Translations under genes and position numbers: made by a program
Notes under the pieces: model-generated
Database searches by the model: none
What the model was told of the DNA's origin: nothing
The model's input: the letters and a program-made list of their open reading frames with translations, nothing else
Source of the DNA: a virus
DNA length: 37,916 nt
Direction: 5' to 3' (one strand)
Virus record (IMG/VR): IMGVR_UViG_3300015171_000015
Location: 1-37,916 of that record
In this document: positions 1 through 37,916 of the stretch, piece after piece
Layout: each line of letters opens with the position of its first letter
Numbering within the stretch: the stretch's first letter is position 1

Positions 1-90
1 AAACACCCGAGCATCACCATACACCTGAGCATCACCAGACACCTGAGCATTACCATACACCCGAGCATTATCAGACACCCGAGCATCACT
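1..90. repeat. Tandem 18-bp repeat array, left end
   Basis: Degenerate tandem units of 18 bp (for example CACCATACACCTGAGCAT). Each encodes one hexapeptide of the beta-helix-like protein on the minus strand. The array continues at 37747-37916, so the window is broken inside it. Confidence 0.9.
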
Positions 91-210
91 ATTTTTATCT
101 AAATTTGATTCTTTTTCTATCCAACCTCCTAATTCTCCAGATTCATATTTAATGCGGTTAAGAGTAATTCCAAGTTCTATTTTCGTTTCACCTGTAAATG
201 TATACTTCAT
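1..210 (-). CDS. Hexapeptide-repeat (beta-helix-like) protein, N-terminal part, cut by the window edge
   Basis: Seen: ATG at 210 opens a frame that runs to base 1 as exactly 70 codons. A short N-terminal domain (about residues 1-44, including LGGWIEKESNL) is followed by hexapeptide repeats of the type G-D/N-A-x-V-x. The same repeats continue at the other end of the window (37513-37916), so this is the first half of one gene. Family knowledge: phage proteins with an LGG-x-I-E-x-E-x-N-L lead-in and tandem (V/Y)GNA-type repeats are predicted left-handed parallel beta-helices, with no settled function. The gene overlaps the upstream lipoprotein gene by 4 bases (ATGA). Joining base 37916 directly to base 1 gives 614 nt, two thirds of a codon off, so the repeats fall out of frame unless a base is missing at the junction. 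Confidence 0.8.
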   Translation of the reverse strand, partial: MKYTFTGETKIELGITLNRIKYESGELGGWIEKESNLDKNSDARVSDNARVYGNAQVSGDAQVYGDARVF

Positions 211-407
211 TTTGCCTCCTTATCGCATGGACTTTGTTTACAGTAATAGGGCCAAAACACCCTTTGTGCCTCATACCTATCCATCTCTTCTTTTCTAAGT
301 TCAGACCATGATTGAGAACACCCAACAAATAGAGTTAAGCCAAAACACCCTAATAGTAAAACACTCAGTGTAAGGGTTACTTTAATAGCGAACTCTTTGT
401 TGTTCAT
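207..407 (-). CDS. Small predicted lipoprotein
   Basis: 66 aa. Seen: a short N-terminus with one lysine near residue 9, a hydrophobic stretch of about residues 10-28, then LFVGC, which fits a lipobox with Cys30 as the acylated residue. The mature part is short, charged (ELRKEEMDRYEAQR) and has two further cysteines. It would be an outer- or inner-membrane lipoprotein. ATGA-type overlaps link it to the genes on both sides. Small phage lipoproteins are often outer-membrane spanins, but this one is far from the lysis genes and lacks a proline-rich mature part, so the spanin idea is weak. A superinfection-exclusion or surface role is equally possible. Confidence 0.65.
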   Translation of the reverse strand: MNNKEFAIKVTLTLSVLLLGCFGLTLFVGCSQSWSELRKEEMDRYEAQRVFWPYYCKQSPCDKEAK

Positions 408-4236: not shown

Positions 4237-5577
4237 ATGGCAAATCGCCGCTACCAATCCCAATTTCTTCAGACTTTCGAAACCCAACAGGTATTGTTGG
4301 AATGTAACTTCCTAGTAGACCCGCTCAATCCTAACGGAATGGGCACTTCTCTTTTAAAAGGCGCAGGCATTGCTGCCGTTTATATGAACGTGCAGGGCGC
4401 AGGTCCTGCAGGCACTCCTGCAATGGGGTCTGCACGAACCTTCGCTATCCTAGGCGCTTCGGCAGTATCTAATACGGGTTCCAGCGTTCTATCTGGTGAT
4501 CTCGGTATCTATCCAAACGGCCCCTCTTCGGTTACTGGGTTTCCTCCTGGAACCTATAGCGGAGCACTACATGCTGCGGACACAGTGGCTCAGCAGGCAC
4601 AAGCCTCCGCCCTCGCAGCCTATACTGATTTGCAGGCTCGCGTTGCTACTGTAATCCCAACTGAACTTGGCGGGCAGTCTCTTGCCCCCGGGGTTTATAG
4701 AGCCGCTAGTGGTACTTTCACACTTAACGGAACGCTTACTCTTACTGGACCTGCTTCCAGCCTGTACGTGTTCCAGACCGCTACTACTCTTGTTACTGGC
4801 GCATCCAGCACCCCAGTTATAGCGCTTGGAAGCGTTCTTCCTAGCAACATCTATTGGGCAATCGGTTCGTCTGCAACTATTAACTCAGGGAACGCAGGCA
4901 CTTTTAGTGGTAACGTTATCGCCCAAGCTTCTATCACAGATACCCTCGGGGGTACGGTTAATGGAACTTTGGTGGCCCTTACCGGTGCAGTTACACTTAG
5001 TGCGGCGTCTTTGATTAACGTACAGACCCTCGCCCCATCCTTTGTGGCCCCGGGTAACCCAAATCCAGCTCCCGGTTACATCATGGTTCAGTTTACTGAT
5101 GTATACTCCCGTTATTTGGCTGGATTTTCTGGGTTTGCTTCTGGTGCAGGTGGTGTTATCAGTAATATTGGTGGAACGGCATTGACTCAAGGAAAAGCCT
5201 ACTTTGTTAATAGCGTTGGTACCAGCACTCAAGCAGATTGGACTGCAGTAGGGCTTCCAGCGGGAGTAGTTCCAGTTAGAGGAATGCCTTTCATTGCAGC
5301 CACAACTGGAGCAGGATCGGGATCTGGTACAGCAAGAACCGATAGTGTCTCTGGTATTGGCTCTATTGAGACGTTGGCAGTACCTAATTTGAGTGTATCA
5401 GCTATGGCAAAGTTACCCGCATCTAGTGTTCAGCCTATTGGACAAACTGTTGGCGGATACATAATTTTAATTTGCCTCGATGCTCCTGGAACTGCCCCAG
5501 TACCTCCTGCAACTTTTAGTACAGTATATCTAAACTTCTTGCTCTCCAATAGTTCAGTGACCATTAAAGGTCAGTAA
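4237..5577 (+). CDS. Virion protein with an inserted ice-binding-like (DUF3494) domain
   Basis: 446 aa. Seen: residues 1-60 (MANRRYQSQF...) and about 275-446 resemble a phage capsid-associated or decoration protein split in two. Between them, about residues 66-262 match the DUF3494 ice-binding fold: FAILGASAVSNTG near the start, SGDLGIYP, PGTYSG, an AQQAQASALAAYTDLQAR helix, LGGQSLAPGVYRAAS, FTLNGTLTLTG, YVFQTATTL, IYWAIGSSATINSG, FSGNVIAQASIT, VNGTLVALTGAVTLSAASLI. Family knowledge: such domains bind ice or act as beta-solenoid adhesion modules in cold-adapted microbes. Place (after capsid, before the adaptor) suggests a head-surface decoration protein or short head fibre. It has its own promoter, leader and terminator, so its dose may be set separately. 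Ice binding itself is inference. Confidence 0.75.
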   Translation: MANRRYQSQFLQTFETQQVLLECNFLVDPLNPNGMGTSLLKGAGIAAVYMNVQGAGPAGTPAMGSARTFAILGASAVSNTGSSVLSGDLGIYPNGPSSVTGFPPGTYSGALHAADTVAQQAQASALAAYTDLQARVATVIPTELGGQSLAPGVYRAASGTFTLNGTLTLTGPASSLYVFQTATTLVTGASSTPVIALGSVLPSNIYWAIGSSATINSGNAGTFSGNVIAQASITDTLGGTVNGTLVALTGAVTLSAASLINVQTLAPSFVAPGNPNPAPGYIMVQFTDVYSRYLAGFSGFASGAGGVISNIGGTALTQGKAYFVNSVGTSTQADWTAVGLPAGVVPVRGMPFIAATTGAGSGSGTARTDSVSGIGSIETLAVPNLSVSAMAKLPASSVQPIGQTVGGYIILICLDAPGTAPVPPATFSTVYLNFLLSNSSVTIKGQ

Positions 5578-5598
5578 ACTTTTGTAAGTTAGTTTATA

Positions 5599-5640
5599 GG
5601 CAGGTTGTACACCAAAACGTGTACAGCCTGCCCCTTTTAT
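5599..5640 (+). terminator. Terminator hairpin
   Basis: A 14-bp stem, GGCAGGTTGTACAC (5599-5612) with GTGTACAGCCTGCC (5619-5632), one G-T pair, 6-nt loop, then CCTTTTATTT. A strong hairpin with a moderate T tract. Some readthrough into the adaptor gene is likely. Confidence 0.75.
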
Positions 5641-5650
5641 TTGGAGACCC

Positions 5651-6691
5651 ATGATCCCCGCTATTCCAAATCCCAGTACAACTTACCTACAACAAGGGAA
5701 CGGCCAAGTCCTTCTTTCTTGGGCTTATGTGACTGGGGCCACAAGTTATAGCGTACAAAGAAGTCTTGATGGTCTTTCTTATGTGACTGTAGCTACTCCC
5801 ACGATTAATAGTTATCTCGACGCCACAGTAACACCTGGCACCCAATACTTTTATCAACTTGCCTCTGTAAATGTTAGTGGTACGTCTGCCTACACGCCAT
5901 CTCAGTCAATTGTCCCCACCATTCAGGGAAAGGCATCTCTTGCCTCGCTAAGACTAGCGGCTCAACAACGTGCTGATAGGGTTAATTCCAATTTTGTTGG
6001 GCTCCCTGAATGGAACTTCTTTATTAATCAAGCCGCCTCCGAGTTGTATGACATCCTTGTACAATCCTATGAGGATTACTTTGTAGCACAGCCAGCGCTT
6101 TTCACTACAAATGGAAGCTCTCAGTCGTACCCCTTGCCAGATGGAGTTCTTACTTTCAAAGACCCAGCCGGGAATACTTACGTAGCCCCCCCACTCTATA
6201 AACTAATGGGAGTGGATCTAGGACTTAACAATGCTCCTAATGGGTGGGTAACGGTAAAGAAGTTTAATTTCATAGATAGGAACCAATATGTATTCCCAAA
6301 TACATCTAGTACCCTTTATGGTGTATTCAATCTTCGTTATCGGCTGGTTGGTAGCACAATAGAATTCATTCCAGTTCCAACTAATCAACAGCCGATGCGG
6401 CTCTGGTACATTCCCCGAATGGCACAACTATTACAAGACACAGATACTCTCGAAGGCATCGCCGGAGCATGGTTCCAATATGTCATCATTAGAGCAGCAA
6501 AGTATGCTCTCGATAAAGAAGAGAGCGACACAACTAAGTTAGATGAGGAGCTGCTTTTCCTACGTAAGAGTATTGAAGAGAGCGCGCCTAATAGAGATGT
6601 TGGGCAAGCAGATACTATTAGCAATACACGAAATGCATCCGGGTATGGTGGGGGAAATGGCTTCCCAGGTATGGGCGGGCAGGGTTGGTAA
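5651..6691 (+). CDS. Tail adaptor (head-tail connector) with N-terminal FN3 domain
   Basis: 346 aa. Residues 1-95 form a fibronectin type III-like domain (VLLSWAYVTGATSYSVQRS, TQYFYQLASVNVSGTS). From about residue 97 the protein resembles podovirus adaptors of the gp4/tail-tube-A kind: ASLRLAAQQRADRVNSNFV, EWNFFINQAASELYDILVQSYEDYF, FTTNGSSQSYPLPDG, a beta core with RLWYIPRMAQL, and helical WFQYVIIRAAKYALDKEE. A Gly-rich tail ends the chain. Role: it binds under the portal ring and joins the nozzle. The FN3 fusion is the odd part; such domains usually decorate virion surfaces and bind carbohydrate or cells. Ribosome site GGAG lies 5 nt before ATG. Confidence 0.75.
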   Translation: MIPAIPNPSTTYLQQGNGQVLLSWAYVTGATSYSVQRSLDGLSYVTVATPTINSYLDATVTPGTQYFYQLASVNVSGTSAYTPSQSIVPTIQGKASLASLRLAAQQRADRVNSNFVGLPEWNFFINQAASELYDILVQSYEDYFVAQPALFTTNGSSQSYPLPDGVLTFKDPAGNTYVAPPLYKLMGVDLGLNNAPNGWVTVKKFNFIDRNQYVFPNTSSTLYGVFNLRYRLVGSTIEFIPVPTNQQPMRLWYIPRMAQLLQDTDTLEGIAGAWFQYVIIRAAKYALDKEESDTTKLDEELLFLRKSIEESAPNRDVGQADTISNTRNASGYGGGNGFPGMGGQGW

Positions 6692-17300: not shown

Positions 17301-17669
17301 ATGTCCCATAAAAGTAATCTAAAAGTTTTCCCCTCAATCGTAGCTGGGGATATGGCTGGGGATCTCACCTCCAAAGTCACTAACATCCAATTCCTTGATC
17401 TTATTGGGATTCAGGCTAATGTAGTGTCGGGCACGCCCACCGGAAGCCTAGCTGTACAGGTTTCAGCAGATTATAACCAAGATGATCTTGGCAATGTGCT
17501 TAATGTAGGCACTTGGGTCACTTTAGTCACTCAGGCGATCACCTCTGGATCCCCTGCGGCCACATATGTTGACCTAACCCCCACCAGTGCTCCTTGGATT
17601 CGACTTAAATATACCCGTACTTCTGGAACTGGGGTTCTTAACGCCTTTGTAACCGGAAAGAGCATCTAA
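17301..17669 (+). CDS. Small beta-rich virion protein, unknown
   Basis: 122 aa. Begins SHKSNLKVFPSIVAGDMAGDLTSKVTNIQFLDLIGIQAN and ends WIRLKYTRTSGTGVLNAFVTGKS, an all-beta pattern typical of short phage fibre-base or decoration proteins next to fibre genes. No enzyme motif. Ribosome site GAGG lies 5 nt before ATG. Its stop codon overlaps the start of the long fibre gene by 1 base, so it may be the fibre's partner or base. Confidence 0.55.
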   Translation: MSHKSNLKVFPSIVAGDMAGDLTSKVTNIQFLDLIGIQANVVSGTPTGSLAVQVSADYNQDDLGNVLNVGTWVTLVTQAITSGSPAATYVDLTPTSAPWIRLKYTRTSGTGVLNAFVTGKSI

Positions 17670-20083
17670 TGTCTACATCATACATTACCTATCCTCCTAA
17701 GGGTGTTCCGATTTATGCCAATGTCTCGTTACTACCCTCAACAGCTATACCGGGATCTTTAGCTACAGTAACTAATACCGACTCACTTTATATTTATGAT
17801 GCAATCACCGGTTGGGTGCTTATATCTGCAGGCGGAGGCGGAGGTATTTCTGGGGCTGGAGCTAGCTCTCAAGTAGCTTTTTTCACTGGAACCTCCGTTA
17901 TAGCTAGCTCTTCCACCCTCACTTTATTCGGAGGTATCCTTACTACCCCCAATCTAGTTGCTAATGGACGCTTAGGGGTTAATATCTCTAACCCCGGGGC
18001 TCAGTTAGAAGTTGATATAGCTGGGGCTGCTATTACAGGAATGATTATTAAAGGGGCTGCTTCTCAATCATCTGATCTTCAGCAGTGGCAATCCAGTGCA
18101 GGAGCTGTTCTTGGAAGCATTGCCTCTGATGGGACTCCTAGCTTTCCAGGAGCTGGTGTTAGATCTCAAAGAATTGGAGCCACCTCAATAGCCTCTGCTA
18201 CAGATTCTATTGCAATTGGAGTTGGTGCTACCGCCTCAGCAGTAGGATCCCAAGCCTGGGGAACGAATGCTATTGCTAGCGGTGGGGGTGCTATTGCTCT
18301 AGGAGATGGAGCAGCGGCTACTTTTTCTAGTTCTATTGCAATAGGCTCATCTACTAGTGTTTCTGGAAATGGTGCGATAGCTATTGGAGATGGTGGAAGC
18401 ACTGCAGCAGCAGGAGCAGTTGCTTTAGGTAATGGCACACAAGCACTTGCTACTGATTCAATTGCTATTGGCAATTCCGCTATAGCAAATAATATTGGAT
18501 CTATCGTTATTGGACGAGATACTACAGATACTGCTGCTCATCAATTTGTAGCTGGAAGTGATACTAGATCAATTAATAATGTGTATTTTGGACGTGGGGT
18601 AAGCTCCGCAACCCCTTCCTCCTATGCGATTAATGGCACGGGTGGGCTTGGAACTGATATTGCTGGAGGGGACTTAAACTTAGCTGGTGGTGCCAGCACC
18701 GGGGCGGGGCTTGGCGGATCTATTGGATTTTTTACCTCATTAGCAGGTTCCACTGGATCAACTACTAACGGCGAATCGCAGAGAATGCTTATTGATCAAG
18801 CTGGGCTTGTGAGTATAGGATCAGGCTCTCAGTTTCAGGTAAATTCTACTGGTAACTTAATTAAGATTCGAAATGTATCTTACTCATGGCCCGCCGCTCA
18901 AGGAGCTGTTTCAACTGTTCTTACTGATGATGGTAGTGGCAATCTTTCTTGGTCTACTGTCAGCGGCGGAGCTAACGTCTCTTTATCTAACCTTTCTGCA
19001 CCAACAGCTGTTAACCAAAACTTAAACTTTAGTGTAGATGGAAGTTTTGATATAGGAAGTCCTGATGGGGGCACTACTGTTTTACGCCCAAACACCATAT
19101 ATGCTAAAACAGCAGTACGTATTGGTAGACAAGATGTTGTAACTGGTGGAGATAGGCTCACTCTTATTGTCCCTGGTGGGGGCGGTAGTGGATCTCTTAT
19201 AGCTTGGGGATCTAATGGTGATGGACCAGGTCCCGCTTGGTTTAATGGTAGGACTACGGCAGCGCTATCGGACTTTGTTATTGCTTACGGATCCTCCGGC
19301 AATATGGCAGGTCCTGATGGTATAGCTAGTTTCCAAACAACTGGTTCTTTTACTTTAAAAAGACCTTCTGGAGCCAATATCCTTTGGACTACAGATGGTG
19401 CGGGCACCATTGGAGGTAACACCGTTAATCGTCCGAGTGATATATATGTTTCCAATACTATAAATTCTGGCGGCAATGCCCTATTTGGACCGAATACAGC
19501 GGAAAGAGTTTATTTGGTAGCCTCGCAGGGAGTTGGAACCAGAATAGTCATAGGAAACACGGGCGATGGTGGTGCCTCGGGTTGGAGGATAGAGCGGGTT
19601 GCTGCTGCTGCATCCGACCTGAATTTTGCTTGGGGCACTGGTGCAATTGGAACCAACACCCTGGTTAGCCTACAAACCTCAGGCTCCCTAACCATGAATT
19701 CAGCTTCTGGTGCCAATATCTTATGGGCTACGGATGGTGCCGGAAGCATAGGAGCAGCCGGGGCTAGCAGACCTCTTAACATAGATGCTGCCGGAACTAT
19801 AACTGGTGCAGTTAGTGTAAGAAGTGTACAGCTCTCAACTAGAGAAGCAGGAGCAGGGGCAGATAGTAGTGGGGGCGGTACATTGGTTGCAGGAACTGTC
19901 ACAATTACTACTTCTGCCGCTAAAACAACAAGTAGAATATTTGTTACCGATACTACCACTGGAGCCCTTGTTAATGTTGGATCTTTGGTAGTTAGTGCTA
20001 AAAATATAGGTAATTTTACAGTAAAATCCACCAATTCATTAGATACGTCCACTTTTGATTGGCTTATAATTAATCCATATTAA
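17669..20083 (+). CDS. Long tail fibre with YadA/Hia-like head repeats
   Basis: 804 aa. N-terminus (SYITYPPKGVPIYANVSLLPSTAIPGSLATVTNTDSLYIYD region, residues 1-50) is the virion-binding part. Residues about 165-290 are tandem 14-15-residue repeats with SIAIG, AIALG, AIAIG, AVALG and SIVIG cores, the signature of left-handed beta-roll heads of trimeric autotransporter adhesins. A second repeat, NILW(T/A)TDGAG(T/S)IG...RP, occurs at about 572 and 687, with a related DGSFDIG...LRP at about 455. The C-terminus (LVAGTVTITTSAAKTTSRIFVTD and DTSTFDWLIINP) is a typical fibre tip of phage receptor-binding proteins. Likely trimeric; determines host attachment. Confidence 0.75.
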   Translation: MSTSYITYPPKGVPIYANVSLLPSTAIPGSLATVTNTDSLYIYDAITGWVLISAGGGGGISGAGASSQVAFFTGTSVIASSSTLTLFGGILTTPNLVANGRLGVNISNPGAQLEVDIAGAAITGMIIKGAASQSSDLQQWQSSAGAVLGSIASDGTPSFPGAGVRSQRIGATSIASATDSIAIGVGATASAVGSQAWGTNAIASGGGAIALGDGAAATFSSSIAIGSSTSVSGNGAIAIGDGGSTAAAGAVALGNGTQALATDSIAIGNSAIANNIGSIVIGRDTTDTAAHQFVAGSDTRSINNVYFGRGVSSATPSSYAINGTGGLGTDIAGGDLNLAGGASTGAGLGGSIGFFTSLAGSTGSTTNGESQRMLIDQAGLVSIGSGSQFQVNSTGNLIKIRNVSYSWPAAQGAVSTVLTDDGSGNLSWSTVSGGANVSLSNLSAPTAVNQNLNFSVDGSFDIGSPDGGTTVLRPNTIYAKTAVRIGRQDVVTGGDRLTLIVPGGGGSGSLIAWGSNGDGPGPAWFNGRTTAALSDFVIAYGSSGNMAGPDGIASFQTTGSFTLKRPSGANILWTTDGAGTIGGNTVNRPSDIYVSNTINSGGNALFGPNTAERVYLVASQGVGTRIVIGNTGDGGASGWRIERVAAAASDLNFAWGTGAIGTNTLVSLQTSGSLTMNSASGANILWATDGAGSIGAAGASRPLNIDAAGTITGAVSVRSVQLSTREAGAGADSSGGGTLVAGTVTITTSAAKTTSRIFVTDTTTGALVNVGSLVVSAKNIGNFTVKSTNSLDTSTFDWLIINPY

Positions 20084-20092
20084 GGAGATAAA

Positions 20093-20308
20093 ATGGCGAA
20101 AACATGTGTTAGTTTTATATTACAAATATTAGATAGCGATGGAAACTACAGCTCATCGCTTCAAATTGGCTCTACAGATATGCCAAATTCAATTGGAATG
20201 GTAAGTCAGAGTCAAGGGCTGCTCACTTCTGATCAAAAGGCTATGAGCACTTCAACTCTATATGCATCAATGAAGGCCGCAGCCTTGGCTGCCGCTGGTA
20301 TAGTGTAG
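20093..20308 (+). CDS. Small protein between fibre and holin, unknown
   Basis: 71 aa, with a clear ribosome site (AAGGAGA, 4-5 nt before ATG). Begins with a beta-like KTCVSFILQILDSDGNYSSSLQIG, ends Ala-rich (MKAAALAAAGIV). No signal peptide or transmembrane helix long enough to be certain. By place it could be a fibre-associated protein or a first lysis-cassette gene. Its stop overlaps the GTG start of the holin. Confidence 0.5.
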   Translation: MAKTCVSFILQILDSDGNYSSSLQIGSTDMPNSIGMVSQSQGLLTSDQKAMSTSTLYASMKAAALAAAGIV

Positions 20309-20679
20309 TGGGCTACAAGACCTTCATATTCTCTATATTGGTTATATTCCTACCGATTAAACCCGTTCTTCTTACGGTGCTTACTCTTGTTGGGGTAGAC
20401 CTAATAGGGGGGCTTATGGCAGCTAAGAAGAGGAAAGAACCCATAACTTCTTCTGGCTTTAAACGCACTATAGTAAAACTATTTGTATATGAACTTGTGA
20501 TCATTTTAGCTCATATTACTACTCAATACTTAACGGGAGATATGATCCCCCTTGTAAAAATACTAGCAGGGTATATCGGAATTACAGAACTTAAGTCTTG
20601 CATGGAAAATATGGAAGAGTTGACTGGAGTTCCAGTCCTTAAAGCCTTAATTGATAAGATAACCCAAGCGGGGCAGTAA
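20308..20679 (+). CDS. Holin
   Basis: 123 aa, GTG start overlapping the previous stop by 1 base. Seen: N-terminal hydrophobic helices (about residues 5-35), then GVDLIGGLMAAKKRKEPITSSGFKRTIVKLFVYELVIILAH and a last hydrophobic stretch (PLVKILAGYIGITELKSCMENM). The D-x-x-G-G-x-x-A-x-K...SSGF order matches the phage holin 4 (TcdE/Cph1-type) family. Role: forms the inner-membrane hole that releases the lysozyme encoded two genes downstream. Overlaps the rhomboid gene start by 1 base. Confidence 0.8.
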   Translation: MGYKTFIFSILVIFLPIKPVLLTVLTLVGVDLIGGLMAAKKRKEPITSSGFKRTIVKLFVYELVIILAHITTQYLTGDMIPLVKILAGYIGITELKSCMENMEELTGVPVLKALIDKITQAGQ

Positions 20680-21272
20680 TGCGTTACAAAGTTACCACCA
20701 ATATACTTCTTGTGAGCATATTGTTACAAGTAATACAATCCCTATTTCCACACTTTATTAACTTCCAGGCCTTCCGCTTAAGCGACTTCGAACAACAAAG
20801 AACCTTTTGGAGGGGAATATCCTGTATCCTAGTCCACATGGTGTCTCATGCTAGCTGGGATCACCTACTTGGTAACTTTTCCTTAGGAATACCGTGCCTG
20901 GCTTATATGGAATACCGCCTGGGCTCGGCTAAGATGCTTCAGTTTTACGTAATAACGGGGGTAGGAGCTTTAGTTACAGCCCTATCCATGCCTGTGGGTG
21001 GGGATGCTCTAATCGGGTCTTCTGGGGCTATCTTTGGCTGTTTGGCGGGATCTTGCATGCTTTGGGGTAATACTAAGGCTACTAAGAAGCTTTCTATGTT
21101 CCTATTGCTTCTGTGGCTATTGCCTCAGCTAATGGCCCTATCTATTAGCTTAATGGGGGGTCATATATCCAATTCAGCCCATATTGGGGGGATGTTGACA
21201 GCTATTATTTATCTTCATATAACGTTGGTTTATGACCGCAGAAGATCTAATAAAGCAATGCGAGGGTTGTAG
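20679..21272 (+). CDS. Rhomboid-family intramembrane serine protease
   Basis: 197 aa, about six hydrophobic helices. The rhomboid fingerprint is complete: HASWDHLLGN in helix 2 (His62, Asn66), GSSGAIFG (Ser115 in the GxSG motif) at the start of helix 4, and SAHIGG (His168) in helix 6, giving the Ser-His dyad. Role by family: cleaves substrates within or near membrane helices. It lies between holin and lysozyme with overlaps of 1 and 41 bp, so it is expressed with lysis genes. Possible targets are a holin or inhibitor, a spanin or an unrelated host membrane protein; no substrate can be named. Lysis role is inference from place alone. Confidence 0.85.
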   Translation: MRYKVTTNILLVSILLQVIQSLFPHFINFQAFRLSDFEQQRTFWRGISCILVHMVSHASWDHLLGNFSLGIPCLAYMEYRLGSAKMLQFYVITGVGALVTALSMPVGGDALIGSSGAIFGCLAGSCMLWGNTKATKKLSMFLLLLWLLPQLMALSISLMGGHISNSAHIGGMLTAIIYLHITLVYDRRRSNKAMRGL

Positions 21273-21648
21273 GCTTACTGCCTATACTGATATAGGCGGT
21301 AGGGTTACAATTGGGTGGGGACACGCCCTAGACGTTAAGTTAGGGGAAACTTGGACTCAAGCCCAAGCTGATGCCCAACTCAGGCTTGATATATCACGCG
21401 TCCAGGCTCAAATAAAGAGCATTGTGACCGTACCCCTTACTGCAGGACAACTTGTTGGGCTAACTTCCTTTGTTTTCAATTTAGGAATTGGGAACCTACA
21501 ACGATCAGGCCTACTTAAGATGCTAAATAGAGAAGACTATAAGGGGGCTGCAGATCAATTTCTTTTATGGGATAAGGTTGGTCACTATGTATCCCCGGGA
21601 CTAGCGGCAAGAAGAGCTTTAGAACGATCTATCTTTTTAGCAAAATAG
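21232..21648 (+). CDS. Endolysin, T4-type lysozyme (GH24)
   Basis: 138 aa. Cleaves peptidoglycan glycan strands. Active-site layout is exact: Glu11 (KQCEGCRL), Asp20 (AYTDIGG) and Thr26 (VTIGWGH), the same numbering as T4 lysozyme. Also LTAGQLVGLTSFVFNLGIGNLQRSGLL and a C-terminal RRALERSIFL. No signal peptide or SAR helix, so release should depend on the holin. ATG 21232 lies inside the rhomboid gene (41-bp overlap). The 3' end overlaps the convergent gene 21629-21916 by 20 bp. Confidence 0.92.
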   Translation: MTAEDLIKQCEGCRLTAYTDIGGRVTIGWGHALDVKLGETWTQAQADAQLRLDISRVQAQIKSIVTVPLTAGQLVGLTSFVFNLGIGNLQRSGLLKMLNREDYKGAADQFLLWDKVGHYVSPGLAARRALERSIFLAK

Positions 21649-21916
21649 TCGCTGTAATACCCAGATAACCCCCCACAAGTACCCACATATAAGCAGGCAA
21701 TACGGAAGACTTATCCTCTCCTAACTTATCTTCTAGCTGCTTTGTAGCTAATTTTAGGGCTTTTATATCTTTATCTTGTTCTGTTGATAAAGTGAGGCAT
21801 GCGTTTAGGGCTTTGTCACATTTACTTACATCTTTTTGTGACTTAGTTTCACTTAAGGCTGGATTAACAACTATAAGTTGTTGTATTAGCAACAAAGTAA
21901 ACCATTTATTTAGCAT
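21629..21916 (-). CDS. Membrane protein with coiled coil, spanin-like candidate
   Basis: 95 aa. Seen: N-terminal hydrophobic segment with a signal-like end (FTLLLIQQLIVVNPALSETKS), two cysteines spaced CDKALNAC, a coiled coil (TEQDKDIKALKLATKQLEDKLGEDK) and a C-terminal hydrophobic helix (MWVLVGGYLGITATILLKR). This resembles small exported coiled-coil proteins near lysis genes in other phages. A spanin-like role is possible, but it is convergent with and antisense to the lysozyme end, and an inner-membrane spanin would normally have its helix at the N-terminus. Start ATG 21916 overlaps the upstream gene by 11 bp. Confidence 0.6.
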   Translation of the reverse strand: MLNKWFTLLLIQQLIVVNPALSETKSQKDVSKCDKALNACLTLSTEQDKDIKALKLATKQLEDKLGEDKSSVLPAYMWVLVGGYLGITATILLKR

Positions 21917-22154
21917 TATGATAGTCCTCTAAAGCCCCTGTAAGGGCTTTTCTCATATCTTCTAGCTTAGCCTCTTCTTGAGTTTGTTGTAGGCTTATGG
22001 CTTGTGAAATAAGCTCCACTCTAGCTCTATGTAGTTGATTGCCCTTGATGCTCAATAAAGTTACCAATCCCCCAATTGTTACGGCAGCAGTCAACAGTAA
22101 CCACTGGGTAATGTTAAGTCTAACGTTATCTAAATATGCTATAGCTGCTTGCAA
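21906..22154 (-). CDS. Single-pass membrane protein with coiled coil
   Basis: 82 aa with a TTG start at 22154: AAAGGAG lies 5 nt upstream. An in-frame ATG at 22190 would add 12 residues but has no ribosome site and lies deep inside the HNH gene. Seen: transmembrane helix ITQWLLLTAAVTIGGLVTLLSI, then a long, charged coiled coil (ARVELISQAISLQQTQEEAKLEDMRKAL). The N-in, long coiled tail layout matches inner-membrane spanins (Rz-type), making it the better spanin candidate of the two neighbours. Partner lipoprotein not identified next door. Confidence 0.6.
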   Translation of the reverse strand: MQAAIAYLDNVRLNITQWLLLTAAVTIGGLVTLLSIKGNQLHRARVELISQAISLQQTQEEAKLEDMRKALTGALEDYHNAK

Positions 22155-22576
22155 CTTATCTCCTTTGATTGTTTTGTACAAGTTCGACATAAGTTTCTTT
22201 TCTTAGAAACAGAGGAAGTTTTCCTCCCGCATTGAATACAAGAGGCGTAGCCATTTCTATCTATAGTTCTAGAAAAAGACTTATATACATTATCTGATTG
22301 TGTAACCCACTCTAAATTACTAACTTCATTGTTAAGTCTATTGTGGTCTATATGATTTACAATTTTAAGCCTTTTTTCATTAGGTAAAAATGCTTCTGCT
22401 ACAAGCCTATGAACTAATATTTGACTACCCCCATAATGTATTCGTTCATATCCTTTGCGTCCCCATTTTTGTATTTTAGGAAAAAAAATACATCTAACTT
22501 TACCTAAATTGCTAACTTGATAGATATTCCCCCCATCTTTTCTAACGGTTTTCCAAATGACCTTCATAGTGCTCAT
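22139..22576 (-). CDS. NUMOD4-HNH homing endonuclease
   Basis: 145 aa. N-terminal NUMOD4-like segment (IWKTVRKDGG...YQVSNLGKVRC), then an HNH_3 nuclease: VHRLVAEAFLP, NHIDHNRLNNEVSNLEWVTQSDN. A C-terminal zinc finger follows (CIQC...CRTC). These are free-standing homing endonucleases that cut intron- or gene-less alleles and spread by repair. It starts with an ATGA overlap at 22576. Its 3' end runs 16 bp past the TTG start of the next gene, and an SD for that gene is embedded in its last codons, so it fits its site tightly. Likely a mobile insertion in this small-gene operon. Confidence 0.8.
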   Translation of the reverse strand: MSTMKVIWKTVRKDGGNIYQVSNLGKVRCIFFPKIQKWGRKGYERIHYGGSQILVHRLVAEAFLPNEKRLKIVNHIDHNRLNNEVSNLEWVTQSDNVYKSFSRTIDRNGYASCIQCGRKTSSVSKKRNLCRTCTKQSKEISCKQL

Positions 22577-23369: not shown

Positions 23370-24116
23370 TTATAAATTAACAATTACTGGCTTAATACTT
23401 TTTATTGGTAGCCTACTTCTGCAATAACCACCACAACCTATACAATGAAATCTTCTATAAGTTCCTGCTGTAGTGTATCTAAATCCTTTTGATTGAAGTG
23501 TTGTAGTTTTACCGCATTTAGGGCAACCATCGGGCTTTCCCTCTATTTGAGCTACATTAGGATGATTGTTAATAAAGGGTAGCATTTTATTATAAATCTT
23601 CTCTAACAGCACAACATCTTGCTTATTATAATGAATCATTTTCTTCCAAGCCGAAGGCTTATTGGCCATACACCCGAGCCAAAGATCAAATCCTTCATGT
23701 TTAGCTTTCTGTCCCAGTTTAAGGGTTTTACCAAGATTGTCAAGGCTATTGCTGTTGAAATTGAAATGGGCTTTAGCTACCTTCTTGGTGTCAATAGAGC
23801 GGTAGGGAGTCACTGGGGGCAGTCCTGCAATTATAAATCTAGCATTAGCTTTTTTATTGTCAAATTGGTCTCCATTGTGAGCCACTACAATATCAGCTTG
23901 GCTAAGAATCTTATGGAGATGTAGCAATAGAGTTTTATCGTCTTTCTGGTTTTTTCTAGTAATACATGTAACTTTAGACTCTCCTTGCCACTTATAGGCA
24001 AAGGAAAGAAGCTCCCACTCCTTCTTGTATGCAATTACATTCTGCTCATACATTCCCCAAACATAAGCTAAATTAGGACTTGTTTCTATGTCATAAAACA
24101 ATATTTTTGGTTTCAT
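23370..24116 (-). CDS. RNase H-fold 3'-5' exonuclease with zinc ribbon
   Basis: 248 aa. DEDD-type signature: YDIETSP (Asp/Glu of motif I), VVAHNGDQFDNKKAN (motif II, Asp), and YNKQDVVLLEKIY (motif III, Tyr/Asp). This is the RNase H-like (PF13482 type) exonuclease found in phages, acting on DNA or RNA ends. A C-terminal ribbon (CPKCGKTTT...RRFHCIGCGGYCRS) may bind nucleic acid. The start overlaps the HAD gene stop by 4 bases (ATGA). It is the last gene before the structured RNA. Confidence 0.8.
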   Translation of the reverse strand: MKPKILFYDIETSPNLAYVWGMYEQNVIAYKKEWELLSFAYKWQGESKVTCITRKNQKDDKTLLLHLHKILSQADIVVAHNGDQFDNKKANARFIIAGLPPVTPYRSIDTKKVAKAHFNFNSNSLDNLGKTLKLGQKAKHEGFDLWLGCMANKPSAWKKMIHYNKQDVVLLEKIYNKMLPFINNHPNVAQIEGKPDGCPKCGKTTTLQSKGFRYTTAGTYRRFHCIGCGGYCRSRLPIKSIKPVIVNL

Positions 24117-32305: not shown

Positions 32306-32542
32306 ATGAAAGATAAAGAACTAATTCTAAAGCAACTTGTTAAAATGAACGATGTAGATTTAGCTAAACTACTACGTCCTATGCTTAATAGATTTAGTGC
32401 AGTAGAAAGAGGAAAGTTATCTGCTTCCACTCTTCCCTCTTCTTTCCTTCCCCCAAGTATTACTCTTGATAATTTGATATTTATCCTTTTAGTTCTTTGT
32501 GATCGTATACAGAAGCTAGAGAAAGATACCGATGAACAATGA
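32306..32542 (+). CDS. Small protein between terminase genes, unknown
   Basis: 78 aa. Helical (KELILKQLVKMNDVDLAKLLRPM), then a hydrophobic LDNLIFILLVLCDRIQKLEK, too short to call a membrane helix with confidence. No ribosome site is seen before ATG 32306, and a TATAAT box lies 6 bp upstream, so a leaderless start is possible. Overlaps the large terminase by 11 bp. May be a terminase partner. Confidence 0.5.
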   Translation: MKDKELILKQLVKMNDVDLAKLLRPMLNRFSAVERGKLSASTLPSSFLPPSITLDNLIFILLVLCDRIQKLEKDTDEQ

Positions 32543-33965
32543 TGATCTTCTTAAGAAGTTTGTAGCTTCTTATGCTCCCAAGAATCTTGATTTATCCAAG
32601 ACTTGCTTTAAAGAGCAACTTACCTTCATTCAAGATCCTTCCCCCTTTATTACAGCCATATGCTCCAGGAGAGCGGGTAAGTCTACAGCGTGCGCCGCCG
32701 ATCTCCTTTACACAGCACAAACGAACCCCGGAACCGTTTCACTTTACCTAACCCTCACTCGTGGACAGGCTAAGAGAAATATATGGCCAGTGTTTAAGAC
32801 ATTCATTAAAGAACACAATCTTTCCGCTGAGATGAATGAGTCCGAATTATCAATCAAACTCCCTAATGGGTCTATTATCTTTTGTTCTGGAGCTAAGGAT
32901 ACAAGAGAAGTAGAGAAGTTCTTGGGATTTCCAATAAAAAAGGTGTATATCGATGAAGCACAATCATTTCGAAGTTATCTTTTGGATCTTATTGATCGGG
33001 TCCTCGCTCCTGCCCTTCTTGATCACGCTGGTGTTATCCGCCTTATTGGTACTCCGGGGTGCGTTCCGGTGGGCCCGTTTTGGGAACTATCCCAGAATCC
33101 TGCATGGAAACACCATCATTGGACATTCTTCCAAAACCCATACATCTCTAAAAAATCTGGACAGACACACCAGGCACTCCTCCAGAGAGAATTGGATAGA
33201 CGAGGCATAACTACACAAGATCCTTCTATTAGAAGAGACTACTTTGGTGAGTGGATTACCGATGAAAATAGTCTTGTTCTTAAATACAACCCAAAGGTCA
33301 ACCATTATGACACCCTTCCTCAAGGCAAGTATACTTATATCCTCGGCGTTGATCTTGGCTTCAATGATGCAGACGCCTTGTCTGTTATTGCTTGGAGTGA
33401 GTCTTCTCCTGTTACTTACTTGGTTCACGAAGTAGTTAAGCGTAAGCAAACTATCTCAGACCTCATAAAAGAGATAGAAACCGTCCAGAAACGCTTCGAT
33501 ATCAGTAAAATGATGATAGACACCGGGGGACTGGGTAAGAAGATAGCTGAGAGCCTTTTAAGCCGCTTCCAGGTGCCTTTAATAGCGGCTGACAAAGTGA
33601 GAAAGATGGAAAACCTAGAGCTATTGAATGACGCTATGCGTACGGGTAGGTTCAAAGCAAAGCAAAATAGTGTATTTGCAGAGGATTGTTATAAAGTGGA
33701 ATGGGATAGGGATAAGACCACGCCAGATAAGAAAGTAATAAGTGACCGATTTCATTCGGATATCATCGACGCTGTATTATATTCCTTTAAAGAATCACCA
33801 GCTTATGCCTACCAGCCTCCTATTACTCAGCCTAAATATGGGAGTAAGGAGTGGGCTAAAAAGGAAGAAGATAATATGTTTGAATCAGAGATGGAAAAGG
33901 CTAAAGAGCAATCTGAATCAAATCAAGTATTTAGTGATAGCTTATTCGGTGCAAAGAAATGGTAG
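32532..33965 (+). CDS. terL: Terminase large subunit
   Basis: 477 aa. Packages DNA using ATP, then cuts it. Walker A ICSRRAGKST (residues about 43-52), Walker B KKVYIDEAQ (Asp/Glu), C-motif LIGTPG. Nuclease (RNase H fold): GVDLGFNDADALSV (Asp), MMIDTGGLGKK (Asp), and HSDIIDAVLYSF (Asp). Typical length, all catalytic residues present. The C-terminus is acidic/Ser-rich and Lys-ended, likely portal-binding. Confidence 0.95.
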   Translation: MNNDDLLKKFVASYAPKNLDLSKTCFKEQLTFIQDPSPFITAICSRRAGKSTACAADLLYTAQTNPGTVSLYLTLTRGQAKRNIWPVFKTFIKEHNLSAEMNESELSIKLPNGSIIFCSGAKDTREVEKFLGFPIKKVYIDEAQSFRSYLLDLIDRVLAPALLDHAGVIRLIGTPGCVPVGPFWELSQNPAWKHHHWTFFQNPYISKKSGQTHQALLQRELDRRGITTQDPSIRRDYFGEWITDENSLVLKYNPKVNHYDTLPQGKYTYILGVDLGFNDADALSVIAWSESSPVTYLVHEVVKRKQTISDLIKEIETVQKRFDISKMMIDTGGLGKKIAESLLSRFQVPLIAADKVRKMENLELLNDAMRTGRFKAKQNSVFAEDCYKVEWDRDKTTPDKKVISDRFHSDIIDAVLYSFKESPAYAYQPPITQPKYGSKEWAKKEEDNMFESEMEKAKEQSESNQVFSDSLFGAKKW

Positions 33966-37516: not shown

Positions 37517-37916
37517 TTATTAATCCTTTGTCTAGGTACAATTTTGCATCCAAGTGCAATAATACTCATGTATTCTGATAAATTAGTAATATTGTTCTCT
37601 TTTGCATCTATATTCTTTAATTTAAATATAGTTTCTTTACCAAATCTAGAGTAAAGTTTACATCCAATTGAGATATTCTGAGGAGTGATTGTTACAGCAT
37701 ATCCTGCCCAAAGGATACAAAATAAATGTGATTGTTTTAAGACTTTAGCATCACCAGACACCTGAGCATCACCATACACCTGAGCATCACCAAACACCCA
37801 AGCATCACCATACACCTGAGCATCACCATACACCAGAGCATCACCAAACACCCAAGCATTACCAAACACCCAAGCATTACCAAACACCCGAGCATCACAA
37901 TAAACCTGAGAATCAC
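37513..37916 (-). CDS. Hexapeptide-repeat protein, C-terminal part, cut by the window edge
   Basis: An open frame from base 37916 (partial codon) down to TGA 37513. The first about 55 codons are repeats (FGNAWV, YGDAQV), then a C-terminal domain (CILWAGYAVTITPQNISIGCKL, LSEYMSIIALGCKIVP) of the type that follows such repeats in phage proteins. A GTG at 37887 can serve as a start only by chance; the repeats and codon pattern continue upstream to the window edge. With 1-210 it forms one gene of about 205 codons plus any repeats lost at the break. Confidence 0.75.
   Translation of the reverse strand, partial: DSQVYCDARVFGNAWVFGNAWVFGDALVYGDAQVYGDAWVFGDAQVYGDAQVSGDAKVLKQSHLFCILWAGYAVTITPQNISIGCKLYSRFGKETIFKLKNIDAKENNITNLSEYMSIIALGCKIVPRQRINK
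37747..37916. repeat. Tandem 18-bp repeat array, right end
   Basis: About nine units such as CACCATACACCTGAGCAT and CACCAAACACCCAAGCAT, continuing those at 1-90. Some neighbours form 36-bp higher-order pairs. Arrays of this kind expand and contract by slippage and are hard to assemble. Confidence 0.9.

Follow-up and report, generated by a model that had tools for sequence, protein, structure and literature searches.

Background

As a class, rhomboids work in trans on proteins with a single transmembrane (TM) segment, and rhombosortase appears to transfer its substrates to lipid. Rhombosortase substrates are characterized by a signal peptide, a single C-terminal helix and a basic end (PMC3237569). 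In Providencia stuartii, according to PMC3712462 as cited in PMC9527704, a rhomboid activates TatA by removing an N-terminal extension. The genes of two-component spanins often overlap, the proteins nearly always have periplasmic cysteines and a lipoprotein signal is needed, and u-spanins are without cysteines (PMC6139136).

Rhomboid genes are already present in phage or metagenomic virus records (A0A8S5Q3G3; A0A6J5NSS0, named 'rhombosortase'; the megaphages LR745206 and LR756502). Unlike the locus described here, the three rhomboid neighbourhoods that were inspected by eye (LR745206, MT835727 and MT835518) showed no lysis cassette. When four phage rhomboids were compared by tblastn with 50,697 records, the only matches were to megaphages, a few metagenomic scaffolds and two Acinetobacter records, which may hold host DNA; the search yielded no lysis-linked rhomboid in a named phage. 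A second viral rhomboid, used as query, matched 7 of the 50,697 phage records. A separate viral rhomboid, related to those of LR756502 and LR745206, was noticed in a 73.7-kb contig (L119, 4950-5534), near a topoisomerase-like gene and with no recognisable lysis cassette around it. The words phage, virus and viral are absent from a 2025 review of the rhomboid superfamily (PMC12615303), and a literature search on phage rhomboids and on spanins combined with rhomboids found no relevant study.

The rhomboid gene and its neighbours

The window, i.e. the whole stretch of 37,916 nucleotides of viral DNA that was analysed, contains the genes listed in Table 1.

Table 1. Features of the lysis region and of nearby genes in the window
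Feature	Position	Strand	Properties
Holin, Phage_holin_4_1 family	20308..20679	+	123 aa, GTG start; PF05105, 47.2 bits vs cut-off 22.2; PHROG 199 holin
Rhomboid intramembrane serine protease	20679..21272	+	197 aa, ATG start; PF01694, GlpG homology, AlphaFold2 model
Phage lysozyme (endolysin)	21232..21648	+	138 aa; Phage_lysozyme PF00959, 130 bits, E 7e-38
95-aa candidate substrate	21629..21916	-	Signal peptide, CDxxLxxC, coiled coil, P74/V79/L80/G82, C-terminal TM, KR end
94-aa partner, i-spanin-like	21906..22190	-	N-terminal TM and coiled coil; 11-nt overlap with the 95-aa gene
Exonuclease-like gene	23370..24116	-	PHROG 403 (phrog_403, E 1e-83); outside the lysis module

The rhomboid ORF matched the Pfam family PF01694 with 63.0 bits (cut-off 22.6, E 4.6e-17), a cut-off also exceeded by other phage copies, and a sequence search against solved structures detected Haemophilus influenzae GlpG (2nr9, E 3e-6). 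An AlphaFold2 model built from 11 phage relatives (pLDDT 76, pTM 0.74) has six core TM helices; S115 and H168 are placed at the beginning of the fourth core helix and of the last helix, respectively. GlpG was the best match to the model (VIA Z 14.1 over 158 residues; Foldseek probability 1.00 but E 0.05), and GlpG entries occupied the top 22 places in the fold list with Z values of 12-14. The iRhom entries in the same list reflect the shared fold only.

The active-site set consists of H53, H57, H62, N66, G113-S114-S115-G116 and H168, and comparison of the sequences showed that the 4-5-4 spacing of H53/H57/H62/N66 is that of the H/H/H/N series of Escherichia coli GlpG. The first-pass annotation had listed H62/N66, the GxSG motif with S115, and H168, all of which were found where it had placed them. 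The phage protein thus shares with the GlpG proteins of E. coli and H. influenzae the six-TM core, the H/H/H/N series and the GxS plus His dyad, but it lacks the N-terminal cytoplasmic domain of E. coli GlpG, is only 14-19% identical in structural alignment, is phage-borne and encoded in a lysis operon, and belongs to a clade of its own. By the Pfam match, these residues and the GlpG-like six-TM fold of the model, the ORF is a rhomboid protease, with predicted catalytic activity.

It was also claimed in that annotation that the gene lies between, and overlaps, two lysis genes. Matches to Phage_holin_4_1, PF01694 and Phage_lysozyme do follow one another in that order; in the sequence TAATG at 20677-20681 a single base is common to the holin stop and the rhomboid start, and the ATG of the lysozyme at 21232 falls within the rhomboid gene, giving a 41-nt overlap. 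No signal or SAR helix was evident by eye in the lysozyme. Upstream of the holin gene, a tail-fibre-like protein (17669-20083, plus strand) has YadA head repeats and a C-terminal match to the model for the C-terminal part of K1 capsule lyase. An 18-bp tandem repeat (AGCATCACCAAACACCCG-like), which on the minus strand reads as a hexapeptide repeat, is present at both ends of the window (3-89 and 37747-37916), and the contig may be a genome, either circular or end-repeated, that was broken inside one repeat array.

Lysis-linked rhomboids in related phages

Profile scans of viral contigs detected 11 further metagenomic phage contigs with a rhomboid gene beside lysis genes. Since a 64%-identical rhomboid with the same neighbours occurs in another contig, the rhomboid ORF of the window is not a chance ORF. 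The phages were grouped into clade 1 (the window, L001 and L004) and clade 2 (L010-L017, n=8), with L118 standing apart. The window and L001 have the order holin-rhomboid-lysozyme, and L004 the order holin-lysozyme-rhomboid. Clade 2 has an endolysin, a small single-TM protein and then the rhomboid, an order that recurs in L118 with an extra 75-aa gene.

The clade-2 small protein, which differs from the 95-aa protein discussed below, is a presumed holin, with weak matches to PHROG holins. A holin or presumed holin adjoins the rhomboid, or is one gene off, in 12 of the 12 phages across the three gene orders, and an endolysin scoring above cut-off lies at most two genes away in eight of them, in agreement with the link to lysis made in the first-pass annotation. 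These endolysins are the lysozymes of all three clade 1 members and the upstream endolysins of L010, L012, L013, L015 and L118; the endolysin of L011 stays below the Pfam cut-off, and none was recognised with Pfam in L014, L016 and L017. The start of the rhomboid gene overlaps the stop of the gene for the 72-73-aa single-TM protein in most clade-2 members, and in two of the three clade 1 members the rhomboid gene overlaps the Phage_holin_4_1 gene.

The exonuclease-like gene served as bait for related phages. The other loci found with this exonuclease family lack a rhomboid up to a distance of about 6 kb from the exonuclease, and none was found in nine of these contigs that were searched whole; the rhomboid is therefore dispensable to phages at large. 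Clade-2 relatives were also found to encode secreted protease-like proteins (G003 32494-33150, G004 5501-6154, G009 2224-2727 and L017 5872-6324), judged by eye to be subtilase-like and HExxH metalloprotease-like, the metalloprotease-like one in G009 having a lipobox. Such proteins seem unusual for phages of this size.

Conservation and phylogeny

All 12 phage rhomboids share H53, H57, H62, N66, G113, S114 and S115, and H168 is kept in all 11 complete ones, the twelfth copy being truncated. The first-pass annotation regarded a lost dyad in relatives as telling against its proposal; such a loss was looked for in the related phages and not found (Ser 12/12, His 11/11). Among 157 gap-free columns 17 were invariant, and these include H53, H57, H62, N66, G113, S115 and H168. 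In L004 the sequence is GSSS in place of GSSG, with Ser and His kept. This conservation is seen at 27-38% identity to the window rhomboid among relatives other than the closest. With dN of 0.26-0.33 vs dS ranging from 0.87 to saturation, the phage rhomboids are under purifying selection, and the combination of conservation and selection rules out a chance ORF or pseudogene.

A tree was built from 11 phage copies (the truncated L015 was left out), 20 cellular homologues, two other viral contigs and GlpG; the cellular rhomboids were a small sample picked by similarity. The phage rhomboids formed one clade (support 100/99) on a long branch, apart from the sampled cellular rhomboids. The 20 cellular matches of the genome scan had 24-43% identity, or 24-33% without two short matches. 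Recent capture from a host was rejected, there being no close cellular relative of this single, long-branched clade in the genome scan. The invariant active site, the single clade and the purifying selection together argue for an active enzyme that has long resided in the phage lineage.

A candidate substrate

An all-against-all comparison of contigs revealed the genes common to the window and the long clade-2 contigs. They share few families, namely the exonuclease, a DNA polymerase, a pyrophosphohydrolase, the rhomboid and a 95-aa protein, and at least one further small gene was seen by eye to be common to L004 and clade 2. The 95-aa family is present in six of the six rhomboid phages whose contig reaches its locus, the other six contigs ending earlier. 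Its gene is located just past the lysis genes, on the opposite strand, in clade 1, and 10-12 kb from the rhomboid in clade 2. The six-member alignment was too divergent for a scan of the collection, so a three-member alignment was used, which detected a seventh member on the fragment L142, a contig that ends before the expected rhomboid locus.

The family has two conserved cysteines (CDxxLxxC), a coil, conserved P, V, L and G residues near the point where the C-terminal helix begins, and a basic end. Signal peptide, motif, single TM segment and basic end were called by simple hydropathy and alignment for the six aligned members, and by eye for L142; by these calls the tripartite layout of a C-terminal sorting signal is present in all of them. 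An AlphaFold2 model of the 95-aa protein has three helices, at low confidence. A75 of the window protein fits the usual P4/P1/P2' rule of rhomboid cleavage. This match is not common to the family; VLxG is, but it sits within the C-terminal helix.

A search for substrate helices among phage and host proteins had been recommended in the first-pass annotation, which named no phage-encoded candidate; a hydropathy scan was run here on the phage ORFs. Among all ORFs of the six contigs the scan returned the 95-aa protein and two doubtful ORFs; the same scan of 75 rhomboid-less loci gave 3 loose matches in 1,256 ORFs. Judged by sequence features, the 95-aa protein is the sole credible protein with signal peptide, C-terminal tail anchor and basic end in those six phages, and is the best candidate substrate of the phage rhomboid, which would process it in lysis. 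The two clades also share the exonuclease, the polymerase, the pyrophosphohydrolase and small genes, and therefore the co-occurrence of the rhomboid and the 95-aa protein may reflect common descent; shared descent of the two phage groups is the main alternative reason for it. The distance of 10-12 kb between the two genes in clade 2, where another small protein is next to the rhomboid, also speaks against the pairing, and so does one of the 3 loose matches. A 138-aa protein with a signal peptide, a coil and a C-terminal TM segment, similar in layout to the 95-aa family, is encoded in another phage contig (L020, 12244-12657), in which a rhomboid was searched for and not found. There, a host rhomboid could serve the 138-aa protein.

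Comparison with spanins and rhombosortases

An overlapping gene on the same strand comes before the 95-aa gene at seven of seven loci, and its product is predicted to have an N-terminal TM segment and a coil. The two genes overlap by 4-11 nt in clade 1, and clade 2 has overlaps of some 100 nt or more; the 94-aa sequence of the window is conserved in L001 and L004. A homing-type HNH endonuclease gene (22139-22576, minus strand) overlaps the start of the 94-aa gene in the window; it was not seen at this locus in L001 and L004.

The pair resembles two-component spanins of the Rz/Rz1 type in being small and overlapping, the first gene encoding an N-anchored coil and the second a secreted coil that has conserved cysteines. 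It differs from them in that the 95-aa protein has a C-terminal TM segment instead of a lipobox, which was found in no member of the family, and in that the clade 1 pair and the late operon are on different strands. A secretion signal, a periplasmic part and a C-terminal TM segment in one small protein are also features of unimolecular spanins of the T1 gp11 type, but the 95-aa protein is without a lipobox, has cysteines and is accompanied by a second protein. Spanin family models did not match the 95-aa protein, and a lipobox scan of the rhomboid phages for o-spanins found almost none. In the window, a 66-aa ORF (210-407, minus strand) with the lipobox-like signal LFVGC, for which no homologue was found in the related contigs, is a possible o-spanin or small lipoprotein; it could be an ordinary o-spanin, which would count against a spanin role of the 95-aa protein.

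The target topology used by rhombosortases is that of the 95-aa protein (PMC3237569, PMC6219818). As in rhombosortase systems (e.g. RssP/VesB of Vibrio cholerae), the rhomboid is small and without extra domains, and the candidate partner has a signal peptide, a single C-terminal TM segment and a basic end. In contrast to these systems, there is one candidate substrate per phage genome, lipid transfer is not indicated, and the conserved glycine of the 95-aa protein is inside the helix, with no GlyGly motif before it; the GlyGly-CTERM model of NCBIfam gave no match to the 95-aa protein at E up to 1. The rhombosortase model TIGR03902 was the best NCBIfam model for most phage rhomboids, but the scores (32.1 bits for the window, 21-36 for the relatives) are below the cut-off of 84, and membership in rhombosortase proper was rejected. 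The best NCBIfam match is weak evidence, because ordinary rhomboids in 14 of 14 control genomes also match TIGR03902 below cut-off.

Possible roles of the rhomboid

The identity of the rhomboid, its conserved active site, its gene neighbourhood, and the architecture and co-occurrence of the 95-aa protein are observed. An intact active site, a target-like topology and a lipobox-free, spanin-like pair fit one model of anchor removal, which we regard as quite possible without calling it probable: the rhomboid of the holin/endolysin operon would cut in the inner membrane, with the 95-aa protein as main substrate and a spanin-like job as the outcome. The signal peptide of the 95-aa protein would direct its export, and the single C-terminal helix would anchor it N-out/C-in. 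The rhomboid, presumably expressed with the lysis genes, would cut this anchor in the inner membrane at the time of lysis, and the periplasmic coiled coil would be freed or handed to another anchor, perhaps in the outer membrane. The freed coil and the N-anchored 94-aa partner could then act on the envelope, disrupting it in a spanin-like manner. By analogy with rhombosortase, the two genes might even form a self-contained sorting route, in which the rhomboid frees an o-spanin-like protein of its C-terminal anchor, perhaps with lipid transfer, and makes the spanin independent of the lipoprotein pathway; this we consider rather unlikely.

It is unlikely, too, that the time of lysis is set by the rhomboid through direct processing of the holin or of a holin-like neighbour. 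The overlaps of the rhomboid gene with the single-TM gene in clade 2 and with Phage_holin_4_1 in clade 1 would suit such a role, for which the activation of TatA, as cited from PMC3712462, may serve as a precedent. However, the holin types differ between the clades while the rhomboid belongs to the same clade, the lysozyme separates holin and rhomboid in L004, and the clade-2 small protein has a C-terminal helix and no signal peptide, which makes an N-in/C-out orientation likelier than the usual substrate topology.

A host membrane protein (a defence effector, or a protein of envelope stress or quality control) could also be the target, the rhomboid merely sharing the late operon. Action in trans on single-TM proteins is a general rhomboid trait, and the varying position of the gene within the lysis module would suit a co-expressed accessory; against this, all 12 copies are in the lysis module, and counter-defence genes would usually be expected to be early, so we give a host target little credence. 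A gene product with no lysis role, either a passenger or a non-proteolytic rhomboid-like protein, would be in line with its absence from the other exonuclease-family loci, but is improbable in view of the active site, invariant across deep divergence (the GSSS of L004 keeps Ser and His), the purifying selection and the kept linkage.

Conclusions

According to the literature searched, the rhomboid of these phages belongs to a known enzyme family, and its setting, the phage lysis module, is undescribed. The rhomboid and the 95-aa candidate are encoded by small, separable genes and can be tested together. If the conserved protease is active in lysis modules, proteolysis would be an added control or maturation step in host lysis.
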